A program made the position numbers and the translations under genes. From NCBI GenBank assembly GCA_016217625.1, contig JACRHK010000013.1, positions 1 through 6,705 on the forward strand: 6,705 bases of DNA, in the 5' to 3' direction. Shown one piece after another: positions 1,360 to 4,592 of the stretch. This stretch comes from Nitrospirota bacterium (lineage in GTDB: Bacteria > Nitrospirota > RBG-16-64-22 > JACRHK01). The notes under the pieces were generated by a model that did no database searches, had not been told where the DNA came from, and worked only from the letters and a program-made list of their open reading frames with translations. The stretch's first letter is position 1. Every line of letters begins with the position of its first letter.

Positions 1360-2013
1360 GTGGACCGTCAGGGCAGCGTCAACCAAGCTACACCCCCGAT
1401 GGCTACGCAGACAACGTCTGAGACGTGGCGCCATCCGGGGGGGAAACTCATCGAGCTAGGCCCCCATACCCTCAAACAGGCGGAGCTGCTGGCTATCCTG
1501 ATTGGCGCGGGGGTTGCGGGCCGCCCCGCGCTGGCCATCGCCAACGCCGTCCTGGATGAATACTTCGGGCTTTATGGCATCCACCAGCGGGCCACCCTTG
1601 ATGGCCTCGCGCGCATCCCAGGTTTAGGCCGTAAGAAAGCCGAGCGCATCCTTGCCGCCATCGAACTTGGACGCCGCCTCCACCGCCTCCTGCGGCAAAT
1701 GGCAAAACCGATTGGAACGCTGAAGGACCTGTCGGACTTGTTCGGCCCTTTAGAAATCCCACCCGCACCGGAGCCTCCGCCCCAAGGACCAAGCGATGCA
1801 GAACTCCTCGCGGCAGTCATCAGCTCGGGAATCCGCAGCCGGCCTCCCAAAGTCATTGCAGAGGATCTCCTCTCACGCTTCGGCTCTTTCCTCGGACTCT
1901 TCGGCCAGGACATGGGGGATTTGCTCGACGTCAAAGGCCTGAACTCCGTCAAGATCATCCGGATCGCCGCCGCCCTGGAAATCGCCAAGCGGCTCGACCA
2001 AGCTCTCCAATGA
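1360..2013 (+). CDS. Tandem RadC N-terminal (UPF0758-type) helix-hairpin-helix protein without JAB domain
   Basis: The 217 residues contain two copies of the module that forms the N-terminus of RadC. Copy one is about residues 29-108: LKQAELLAILIGAGVAGRPA, then the helix-hairpin-helix LARIPGLGRKKAERILAAIE. Copy two is about 125-213: PSDAELLAAVISSGIRSRP, then LLDVKGLNSVKIIRIAAALE, where the hairpin GLG has become GLN. A proline-rich linker (residues 134-144) lies within copy two. Normal RadC has one such module plus a C-terminal JAB/MPN metalloprotease-like domain with HxH; that domain is absent here. HhH modules usually bind the DNA backbone without sequence specificity, so a DNA-binding partner of the methyltransferase is the likely role (inference). 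The gene overlaps the next by ATGA. The GTG at 1360 fits the promoter; the ATG at 1399 is an alternative and would lose only 13 unstructured residues. Confidence 0.8.
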   Translation: MDRQGSVNQATPPMATQTTSETWRHPGGKLIELGPHTLKQAELLAILIGAGVAGRPALAIANAVLDEYFGLYGIHQRATLDGLARIPGLGRKKAERILAAIELGRRLHRLLRQMAKPIGTLKDLSDLFGPLEIPPAPEPPPQGPSDAELLAAVISSGIRSRPPKVIAEDLLSRFGSFLGLFGQDMGDLLDVKGLNSVKIIRIAAALEIAKRLDQALQ

Positions 2014-4592
2014 AGCGCAAGAGGCCTGTCCGTGGCGCCCCCATTTCTCTCGTAGCTCGATCCATCACGCACATCGAACGTCAGATCCCGCCCCTCGCCC
2101 ACACGCCGATGTATGTCTGGCACAAGTTCTGGGGGAGGAAGACGTGGAACGTCGTGGGCGAATACATCAGAACCTACTGTCCGGAAGGGGGAATCGTGCT
2201 CGACCCCTTCGCCGGCAGCGGCGTCGTCGCCATGGAGGCGCTCAAGGCGGGGCGCAAAGCCATTGTCTGCGATTTGCTCCCAATCGCCACAGAGATTACC
2301 CGGTTGACGCTGAAACCTGTAGAGCTGAGGCCATTGCGTCAGGCTTTTGACCGTGTCGCTGAACGGGTGAAAGAGCGCATCCTTGGGCTATATGAAACGA
2401 CTTGTCGTAAGTGCGGATATGCCTTTCCGCTTACGTGTGCGGTCTGGGAAAGGGATCGGCTCGTTGAAATCCGTTATGAGGCCTGTCCGCGTTGCAAGGA
2501 TCGGAAGGAGAAGATCTGTCCACCGAACCGAAAGGACCGAGCCCTCCTTGAGAAGATTGAGCAGGCGAAGATTCGCGCCTGGCATCCGCGCAACCGGCTC
2601 TACTACCCCGATGGCGCGCCGTTCAAGGAGAAACAACGGTACGAATCACTCGACCAGTTGTTCACCAAACGCAACCTCATGGCACTTGCCTGGCTCATGG
2701 AGGCCATCGAGAAGGAACCCCGCCGTGACCTACGGGATTTTCTAAAAATTGCCTTCACCTCAATGGTGCATTTGTGCAGTCGGATGATGCCAGATCGACC
2801 AACACGGGCCATGAGCGGTGTTTGGTTTGAGCACAGTTACTGGTATGCTTCACGTTTTATGGAGCAAAATGTCTGGGAGAAATTCGAAAGTGCTGTGATA
2901 GGACGACAAGGACTACAGAAAGCCAAGGACGCATCTAATCGGTTCATTCCGCAGATACAGTTTGGCCGGATGGTCGAGGATGTGCTTGAAGGCCATGCGG
3001 ACGTATACATCCATTGTGGCGACAGTGTGGATCTGATGAAAACCATGGCGGAGCGTTATGGTCCCTGCGTAGACTATATCTTCACTGATCCCCCCTACGA
3101 TGCCTCTGTCCAGTACGGGGAGCTCGCCTACCTCTGGGTTGCTTGGCTTAAGCAGGACGAGGGATATCTGGATGATATTCTCGCCAAGGAGGTAGTGCGC
3201 AACGAGCGCCAACGCAAGACCTTTGATGTCTATCATGCCCTTCTCCGAAACGCATTCAGGGTGATGCACGATGTGCTTAGGCCAGGCGGCTATCTCACCC
3301 TGACATTCCATAACCCCACTTTCAAGGTTCGAAATGCGACAATTTACGCTGGTGTTATGGCAGGATTTGAGCTCGAAAAAATTCATCACCAAGAGTTGGC
3401 ACGCCCCTCGCCAAAATCTCTCTTACAGCCTTTCGGCTCTGCCCAGGGAGACTTTTATCTCCGATTCCATAAGGTTCCTGCCGCTCGTGCCTCTGTCCAA
3501 CCCGAGGAGATTGATGCCGCGCGGTTTGAGCGTATTGTGCTTGAGGCGGCCAAGCGTGTGATTGCTGAGCGGGGTGAACCAACACCCTATACCATTCTGA
3601 TTAATGCAATCGATCCCGAACTCGCCCGCAACGGTTATTTCTCTGAACACCGGACGGGGCTGGATGTCAGCGCCGTTCTCAAGAAGCACGAAGGCCAAGA
3701 ATTTATGTTAGTCCCGATGCAGATCGGGGGTGCAGAAGGAAAGGCATGGTGGTTCAAAGACCCATCGAGTATCCCACGTTTGGAGACCGTACCGCTCTCT
3801 GAACGGGTTGAGCAAACGGTTCTGCGAAAGCTCCAGGAGCGCGGGCGTGTTACTTTCACCGACATGTGGAAGGCGATTAGCGAGGAATTTCCGAACGCCT
3901 TGACAACAGATTCCACAAGCATTAAAGAAGCACTTCAGACATACGCCAGACAGGTAGGACATGGGGAATGGATGCTCAAACCCGAATATAACCAGGACAG
4001 GGTTCACCGGGTGCACACCCGGATGATTGTTATATTGGCTGAGCTCGGTAAAGCCAAAGGCTATGACATCTGGATTGGCCGGCGGGAGCAGGGCGACTCC
4101 GTTGCGGAGGGCTTCTCTGGTCGGGAAGGGGAGCTTCGCCGGTATGTGTCCCGCGCCTCCTTGCGGGGATTGAGGAATGCGCAAAATATTGAAGAGGTCG
4201 AACATATCGACGTGTTATGGCTTAGGGCAAACAAGGTGGAGACGGTCTTTGAAGTAGAGGTGTCGACCTCGATGACCGAGGCTCTCAAACGAGGCTCGAA
4301 CATCGACTCTGCCGTACCGAAATATCTTGTGATTCCTCAAGGACGAGAAGAGCAATTCCGCCGAAAGCTGAGATCGCCTTTGTTTTCCGAGCGATACCAA
4401 CAAGATTCATGGAACCCTATCTTTGGCGAAGCCCTGGACAACGCCTTTCTGAGACATCGAAGCAAAGTAGATATCGCATCGCTCATCAAAAAAAAGGTTG
4501 CCGCGAGTTCGTTAAGAAGGTCAAAAAATGAAGATCAGCTTGGGTTGTTTGTCGCGGAACCCACAGAAGAAACCGAATACGGCAACGAGTAA
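2010..4592 (+). CDS. Zinc-ribbon DNA amino-methyltransferase fused to a nuclease-like C-terminal region
   Basis: This 860-residue protein starts at the ATG of an ATGA overlap with the RadC-like gene and has no Shine-Dalgarno sequence, so translation is probably coupled. Residues 37-49 (WHKFWGRKTWNVV) and 64-71 (LDPFAGSG, AdoMet motif I) begin the methyltransferase. A zinc ribbon follows (C132, C135, C159, C162). Motif IV TDPPY (359-363) indicates N6-adenine or N4-cytosine methylation. Motif I first, with a long insert before IV, resembles zinc-ribbon methylases of the COG1743/DUF1156 kind, though a typical DUF1156 start is missing. Residues about 595-660 look like a winged helix. Residues 665-800 resemble a PD-(D/E)xK nuclease: D734, then E748 and E750 in VFEVEVSTS. 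QLGLF (843-847) near the end matches the sliding-clamp-binding pentapeptide. Parts of the gene are near 45% GC, unlike its neighbours. The methyltransferase assignment is firm; the nuclease and clamp contacts are inferred. Confidence 0.85.
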   Translation: MKRKRPVRGAPISLVARSITHIERQIPPLAHTPMYVWHKFWGRKTWNVVGEYIRTYCPEGGIVLDPFAGSGVVAMEALKAGRKAIVCDLLPIATEITRLTLKPVELRPLRQAFDRVAERVKERILGLYETTCRKCGYAFPLTCAVWERDRLVEIRYEACPRCKDRKEKICPPNRKDRALLEKIEQAKIRAWHPRNRLYYPDGAPFKEKQRYESLDQLFTKRNLMALAWLMEAIEKEPRRDLRDFLKIAFTSMVHLCSRMMPDRPTRAMSGVWFEHSYWYASRFMEQNVWEKFESAVIGRQGLQKAKDASNRFIPQIQFGRMVEDVLEGHADVYIHCGDSVDLMKTMAERYGPCVDYIFTDPPYDASVQYGELAYLWVAWLKQDEGYLDDILAKEVVRNERQRKTFDVYHALLRNAFRVMHDVLRPGGYLTLTFHNPTFKVRNATIYAGVMAGFELEKIHHQELARPSPKSLLQPFGSAQGDFYLRFHKVPAARASVQPEEIDAARFERIVLEAAKRVIAERGEPTPYTILINAIDPELARNGYFSEHRTGLDVSAVLKKHEGQEFMLVPMQIGGAEGKAWWFKDPSSIPRLETVPLSERVEQTVLRKLQERGRVTFTDMWKAISEEFPNALTTDSTSIKEALQTYARQVGHGEWMLKPEYNQDRVHRVHTRMIVILAELGKAKGYDIWIGRREQGDSVAEGFSGREGELRRYVSRASLRGLRNAQNIEEVEHIDVLWLRANKVETVFEVEVSTSMTEALKRGSNIDSAVPKYLVIPQGREEQFRRKLRSPLFSERYQQDSWNPIFGEALDNAFLRHRSKVDIASLIKKKVAASSLRRSKNEDQLGLFVAEPTEETEYGNE

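Follow-up and report, generated by a model that had tools for sequence, protein, structure and literature searches.

The present analysis concerns a 6,705-nucleotide stretch of DNA from a Nitrospirota bacterium (GCA_016217625.1, contig JACRHK010000013.1, forward strand), hereafter the window (C103:1-6705; genome 1.6 Mb, 78% complete), and within it two adjacent genes of the + strand, the first encoding a small protein made up of RadC N-terminal (RadC_N) domains and the second a large methyltransferase with a nuclease-like part. RadC_N and the large protein form a real, recurrent two-gene unit, and we consider it probable that the pair is a one-chain restriction-modification (R-M) system in which a RadC_N accessory binds DNA structures and the nuclease sits, unusually, at the C-terminal end. 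The basis for this reading is the adjacency of the genes across phyla, the conservation of catalytic-type motifs, the co-inheritance of the two genes and the discrete loop types, which vary even among near-identical proteins. More novel than the window pair itself is the broader association of RadC_N with one-chain R-M enzymes.

Recurrence of the pair and the RadC_N protein

The two-gene module proposed in the initial annotation was recovered as two open reading frames (ORFs) at 1360-2013 and 2010-4592, which share an ATGA and encode 217 residues (if the GTG start is used) and 860 residues, respectively. As homologues begin near the HPGGK motif, the upstream gene may start at GTG 1360 or at ATG 1399. 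Two peptide patterns, run in one scan against 84,980 species genomes, matched 63 loci. Of these, 46 have a RadC_N gene immediately upstream, 12 have none there, and the remaining 5 lack the methyltransferase start. The 46 loci fall into 17 named phyla, with four loci lacking an assigned phylum, and the repeated adjacency in unrelated lineages that had been set as a test of the module is thereby found. Pairwise distances in one gene track those in the other (r 0.81, n 41; shuffles do not exceed 0.21), the corresponding value between the two halves of the methyltransferase being 0.90. In three close pairs, both genes have a ratio of nonsynonymous to synonymous divergence (dN/dS) of 0.07-0.12; dS is saturated or nearly so in four wider pairs. 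The two genes have no recurrent third neighbour, since the largest gene clusters besides their own are found in 8 and 7 loci and in varying places; one gene cluster lies downstream of the pair in four Deltaproteobacteria.

The small protein (1360..2013) contains two UPF0758_N (RadC_N, PF20582) stretches together with HHH_5 (E 1.5e-21, Pfam), above cut-off, and the Pfam scan gave no match to RadC/JAB (PF04002), in agreement with its earlier description as a RadC-type protein devoid of the JAB domain. Its first RadC_N copy (residues 26-111; 1435..1692) keeps the HPGGK motif and the GLG hairpin, and the second (residues 144-215; 1789..2004) is shorter. NCBIfam RadC models score far under their cut-offs (99.5 vs 180 and 72.6 vs 133.85), and the full-length RadC of this genome is a separate gene on contig C197, so that the small gene of the pair is not the housekeeping radC. 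The doubling noted for the window is only one form in the family, where RadC_N is either single (~95 residues) or double (~185-217 residues) and the single form is commoner, with 27 single (one possibly cut by a contig end) vs 15 double in 55 tree rows. Since the first copies split into separate groups of a short-sequence tree (those of the window's clade and those of the Nitrospirota/Deltaproteobacteria group, support 100 and 99), the doubling may have arisen twice; the second copies group together with weak support.

When the lone-RadC_N profile was searched against solved structures, weak matches to helix-hairpin-helix (HhH) parts were obtained in topoisomerase V (1.6e-4), Hef (2.5e-4), DisA (0.01) and XPF (0.04), on the basis of which the RadC_N fold can be presumed to bind DNA, and plausibly branched DNA. 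The matches to Hef, DisA and XPF would also suit replication-fork repair, in which a clamp-tethered methyltransferase and nuclease would nick the new strand via its own mark in a MutH-like manner with RadC_N on branched DNA, as would the clamp-like tail and the housekeeping context of some members described below. According to PMC11981726, however, the damage sensitivity of E. coli is normal when radC is mutated. Patchy distribution and discrete specificity types are moreover ill-suited to a conserved repair function, and RadC_N partners elsewhere are mostly Type IIG-like, so fork repair is considered improbable.

Lone RadC_N genes and their neighbours

A reverse search from lone RadC_N genes was done with a profile on 392 Planctomycetota genomes and 395 from the window's own phylum, and with a single sequence on 395 Bacteroidota genomes. 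In 28 of 30 decidable cases, belonging to three phyla, the lone RadC_N gene is followed by a DNA-methyltransferase gene. Among full-length RadC controls such a gene lies downstream in none of 35 rows (34 genes, one counted twice as L101 and L104), these rows being mostly from Bacteroidota and having a median downstream room of 1107 bases, less than the distance of four partners at 1.0-1.5 kb. Partners were sought with ten methyltransferases from the same loci and that of the window, and other families could escape, in cases and controls alike.

Planctomycetota contributed 9 places, 8 with the methyltransferase gene next downstream and 1 at a contig end. The 28 rows from the window's phylum comprise 18 genes (19 rows) with a methyltransferase, 2 without (L192, L188), 4 contig-end cuts and 3 rows excluded as a piece, a broken copy and a full-length RadC. 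Matches occurred in 349 of the 395 Bacteroidota genomes, mostly in frames of full-length-RadC size among the matches listed; in the 30 loci and one place examined, two lone RadC_N genes have downstream room, both followed by a methyltransferase, and two further short matches stop at contig ends. One of the two Bacteroidota cases (G063) was itself the query and is not independent, so the tally without it is 27/29.

The 28 partners comprise 7 of the window's family, 19 Type IIG-like proteins and 2 other methyltransferases (L191 and L176, the latter assigned on a weak 27.7-bit match). Eight were identified by Pfam, and PADLOC, for five partners, gave REase_MTase_IIG as best model in four and second best in one (up to E 6e-239); the remaining Type IIG-like calls rest on phmmer similarity of at least 385 bits to partners identified by Pfam or PADLOC. 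A plasmid relative of one RadC_N partner is annotated BseRI. In several genomes of the window's phylum (L182-L190), the RadC_N and Type IIG-like genes are separated by small genes of toxin-antitoxin-like character (RelE-, PIN- and DUF2283-like by eye), and at L188 (7078-8758) the lone RadC_N precedes many toxin-antitoxin-like genes together with one that is GHKL-ATPase-like, again named by eye.

RadC_N and partner overlap in 15 cases; 24 pairs are no more than 507 bases apart and 4 are separated by 1.0-1.5 kb. Such an upstream, often overlapping position, as well as the toxin-antitoxin-like genes between RadC_N and methyltransferase at several loci, is also in keeping with RadC_N as a regulator or immunity factor that restrains the nuclease, antitoxin-like, until host DNA is methylated, and not as a targeting subunit. 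This is judged unlikely, given that HhH domains are DNA-binding folds and that ten relatives have no upstream RadC_N, which would be costly if immunity were needed. RadC_N might otherwise be an unrelated passenger hitch-hiking beside methyltransferase genes, and the members devoid of it and two lone RadC_N genes lying elsewhere are compatible with that; the difference between cases and controls (28/30 vs 0/35 rows), the tight overlaps, the r of 0.81 and the several distinct partner families leave very little room for it.

From the contrast between lone genes and controls, RadC_N without JAB looks like a general accessory of one-chain R-M enzymes. A larger proposal is put forward tentatively, at somewhat under even chances, namely that RadC_N on its own serves such enzymes generally as an accessory not yet named and that the window's family is a clamp-tethered version, its target switched by exchange of coupled loops, for replication-linked policing of self and non-self. 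The function of RadC, which is widespread in bacteria, is disputed, and a lone RadC_N as frequent neighbour of several distinct R-M families offers a testable job for the domain; if true, an accessory subunit would be added to enzymes usually held to be self-sufficient.

The large protein and its exchangeable segments

The large protein (2010..4592, 860 residues) combines methyltransferase, winged-helix and nuclease-like parts, as the initial annotation had largely anticipated with its methyltransferase carrying nuclease-like and clamp-like portions. N6_N4_Mtase is above cut-off (Pfam). DPFAGSG at residue 65 marks motif I within the S-adenosylmethionine (AdoMet)-binding region (residues 59-101; 2184..2312), and TDPPYD at 359 marks motif IV (residues 355-366; 3072..3107); two CxxC pairs (C132, C135, C159, C162; 2391..2513) likely form a zinc ribbon. 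Along the methyltransferase, motif I (65) is followed by segment A (255-285) and then by motif IV (360).

A winged-helix domain (residues 592-657; 3783..3980) and a PD-(D/E)XK-like nuclease domain (residues 659-820; 3984..4469) are predicted from the structure model, the latter being assigned to PF27126 by inference. Because the fold search with the whole model gave methyltransferase-type folds among the matches listed, the C-terminal part was modelled alone. The PD-(D/E)XK nuclease superfamily, of which the predicted domain is a candidate member, is defined by a core of the order alpha-beta-beta-beta-alpha-beta, with D on the second strand and D/E-x-K on the third. D734, E748 and E750, the last two within FEVE at 747, are invariant in 85/85 aligned rows (81 distinct homologues), RadC_N-less rows included. 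PF27126-type relatives carry the same C-terminal domain with equivalents of H669, D734, E748 and E750, and bear EVE modified-base readers. At L004 (1354-2556) and L202 this nuclease-like domain was observed in a stand-alone protein of 400 residues, whose family is very large (6307 hits), with EVE in many members among the matches listed.

The disordered C-terminal tail of the structure model contains QLGLF (residues 843-847; 4536..4550), in which Q843 is kept in 81/85 rows. A clamp-like motif, searched by its consensus, lies within the last 45 residues in 70/85 rows (66/81 distinct proteins), where 500 shuffles of the 85 rows averaged 6.3 and never exceeded 14. Judging from the sequence, the tail may bind the sliding clamp.

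Two segments of the methyltransferase fall into discrete types, six in the family for segment A (residues 255-285; 2772..2864; window type 'RPT') and two for segment B (residues 455-476; 3372..3437; window type HHQELARPS), and both probably act as target-recognition loops. Among 172 rows (168 distinct proteins), the types of A and B go together in 164/165 rows (160/161 distinct proteins); the loop classes were set by eye, with patterns widened and the sixth type added after a first count had left leftovers, and the neatness of the coupling is partly post hoc, because the grouping of segment A types against segment B was made after that count. In 13 independent row pairs, 12 or 13 agree and 0 disagree (median p 0.00024). 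On a tree built without the loop columns, the segment A type changes 71 times (30 label shuffles: minimum 82, mean 88). Proteins as much as 94% identical elsewhere can differ in loop type, with 50% identity in the segment (L054 and P0063); at 45-62% backbone identity, segment identity is 69% for same types vs 52% for unlike types. At the DNA level, identity dips over residues 250-299 in the unlike-type pairs L043/L044 (58, 68%) and L030/L047 (65, 65%) and partially in L036/L043 (66, 81%), with no dip in the like-type pairs L032/L072 and L036/L073 and no clear drop in the like-type pair L038/L051; further dips are present along the gene. Two contigs of one Nitrospinae assembly (L028, L058) carry methyltransferase copies of differing loop type. 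Discrete coupled loops that vary even among near-identical proteins offer a natural code from which methylation specificity could be read.

Members without RadC_N, weighing of the readings and likeness to known systems

Under the favoured one-chain R-M reading, the methyltransferase would methylate adenine within a short target specified by the exchangeable segments A and B, and the nuclease, placed by the winged helix, would cut DNA with unmarked targets. RadC_N, through its HhH fold, would keep the enzyme on DNA, probably branched or replicating, and the QLxLF tail would dock on the sliding clamp; it is proposed that by this docking new host DNA would be remethylated and incoming replicating DNA inspected.

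Several observations weigh against this reading. Two of the 12 loci without RadC_N are not full members (L081 with 26% identity; L083, a short piece), and the ten left have no RadC_N gene upstream (for L040 only 547 upstream bases are covered), as is also the case for L002; RadC_N is thus accessory and not obligatory. Several of these members lie inside housekeeping operons (enolase-methyltransferase-phosphoglucomutase), unlike a defence gene, and the genes that flank the pair in the window are of housekeeping type as well. Replacement of E-x-K by E-x-E could mean altered or lost cutting; the EcoT38I match ranks only 41st, with a root-mean-square deviation of 5.3, and the sequence profile of the C-terminal part gave only chance-level matches and no nuclease among solved structures. 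No RadC_N-methyltransferase fusion is present among the best 120 homologues listed, and such a fusion was dropped as proof of contact. L192 and L188, 2 of the 30 lone RadC_N genes, have no methyltransferase nearby. The search profile (A4) could favour methyltransferase-linked copies, because it was built from 27 such RadC_N genes, of which 26 precede members of the window's methyltransferase family and one (L111) precedes a Type IIG-like gene. The clamp-like tail occurs in only 3/13 Type IIG-like partners examined, so the fork idea does not generalise, and the motif was dropped as a trait of all RadC_N partners. Cutting, methylation and defence are themselves predicted from sequence and model.

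The RadC_N-less members have contexts of their own. In L056 (2641-5175, Bacteroidota) and L061 (6019-8541, Ignavibacteriota) the gene lies downstream of enolase, with one extra gene after enolase in L061, and directly before phosphoglucomutase; others adjoin AIR carboxylase, LysRS or pyrophosphatase genes. As the enolase/phosphoglucomutase site is common to two phyla, it suggests that a branch of the methyltransferase family is now resident and non-mobile. Among the genomes of ten members without upstream RadC_N that were searched (nine scan members, L040 left out, and L002), that of L056 has a lone RadC_N elsewhere, beside a Type IIG-like gene, four have only longer, RadC-sized frames and five have no match. 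A phage or plasmid origin of the family was rejected, as viral contigs gave only short partial matches (17 loci), phage records one match of 24% and plasmid records three of at most 29% identity.

These housekeeping sites, the clamp-like tail in 70/85 rows and the want of a close homologue in phage or plasmid records favour a solitary regulatory methyltransferase with a CcrM/Dam-like epigenetic or replication-linked role, in which the nuclease-like domain and RadC_N would only aid DNA finding. It is given a low probability, about that of the immunity factor, since D734/E748/E750 are invariant even without RadC_N, the relatives of the nuclease-like domain carry EVE readers, loop types switch often on the tree, unlike a fixed regulatory mark, and broken copies exist (L074, L075, L078). 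The one-chain R-M reading is retained in a modified form relative to the self-contained modification/restriction system first envisaged: domain homology supports the putative modification/restriction role, and RadC_N is not an obligatory part.

In the window, the pair is neighboured by the end of a ProRS-like anticodon domain and, upstream at 294-1264, by genes for a GntR/FCD regulator and a CDGSH iron-binding protein that have no apparent connection to the pair, and by a convergent gene for a TrpB-like PALP enzyme (ProRS and TrpB being our own assignments). No tRNA was found in the window, and a tRNA-linked island was rejected on this ground.

With the RadC (UPF0758) family the small protein has in common the N-terminal HhH domain, PF20582 being above cut-off, and differs in having no JAB (PF04002) and in carrying its copies in tandem. 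The methyltransferase bears weak partial similarity to DUF1156 anti-phage and PglX-type methyltransferases, the DUF1156_antiphage model (NCBIfam NF042963) scoring 30.4 bits where its cut-off is 1000, and the Pfam-scanned window genes include neither a helicase nor any other BREX/DISARM gene; BREX, DISARM and DUF1156 systems were rejected, as partial methyltransferase scores are far under cut-off where one is set and partner genes are missing.

In single-chain Type II R-M systems (Type IIC/IIG), methyltransferase and endonuclease reside in one polypeptide, and by sequence and model the window protein shares this arrangement. That no separate endonuclease lies in the window is true and not odd, because one-chain enzymes carry the nuclease themselves. 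The Type IIG layout (Eco57I/MmeI) has an N-terminal nuclease, a gamma-order methyltransferase and a C-terminal recognition domain, whereas in the window protein, which has no Eco57I Pfam match, the nuclease-like domain is C-terminal and the order is motif I, segment A, motif IV. What it shares with Type IIG enzymes (Eco57I/BseRI-like) is a single chain that unites methyltransferase and nuclease-like domain; the differences lie in the C-terminal position of the latter, its E-x-E and the added RadC_N gene; Type IIG members do follow other RadC_N genes (Pfam, PADLOC). Among the matches listed, no description of RadC_N beside an R-M or methyltransferase gene was found in the literature. DpnI also unites PD-(D/E)XK and winged-helix domains, the latter being a methyl-adenine sensor according to PMC11037411; the window protein has the reversed domain order and a joined methyltransferase, and a reader role of its winged helix is putative. 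In EVE-PF27126 proteins, which are likely EVE-PD(D/E)XK putative type IV restriction enzymes, the same C-terminal domain is joined to a modified-base reader, whereas here it is joined to a methyltransferase, that is, a writer.

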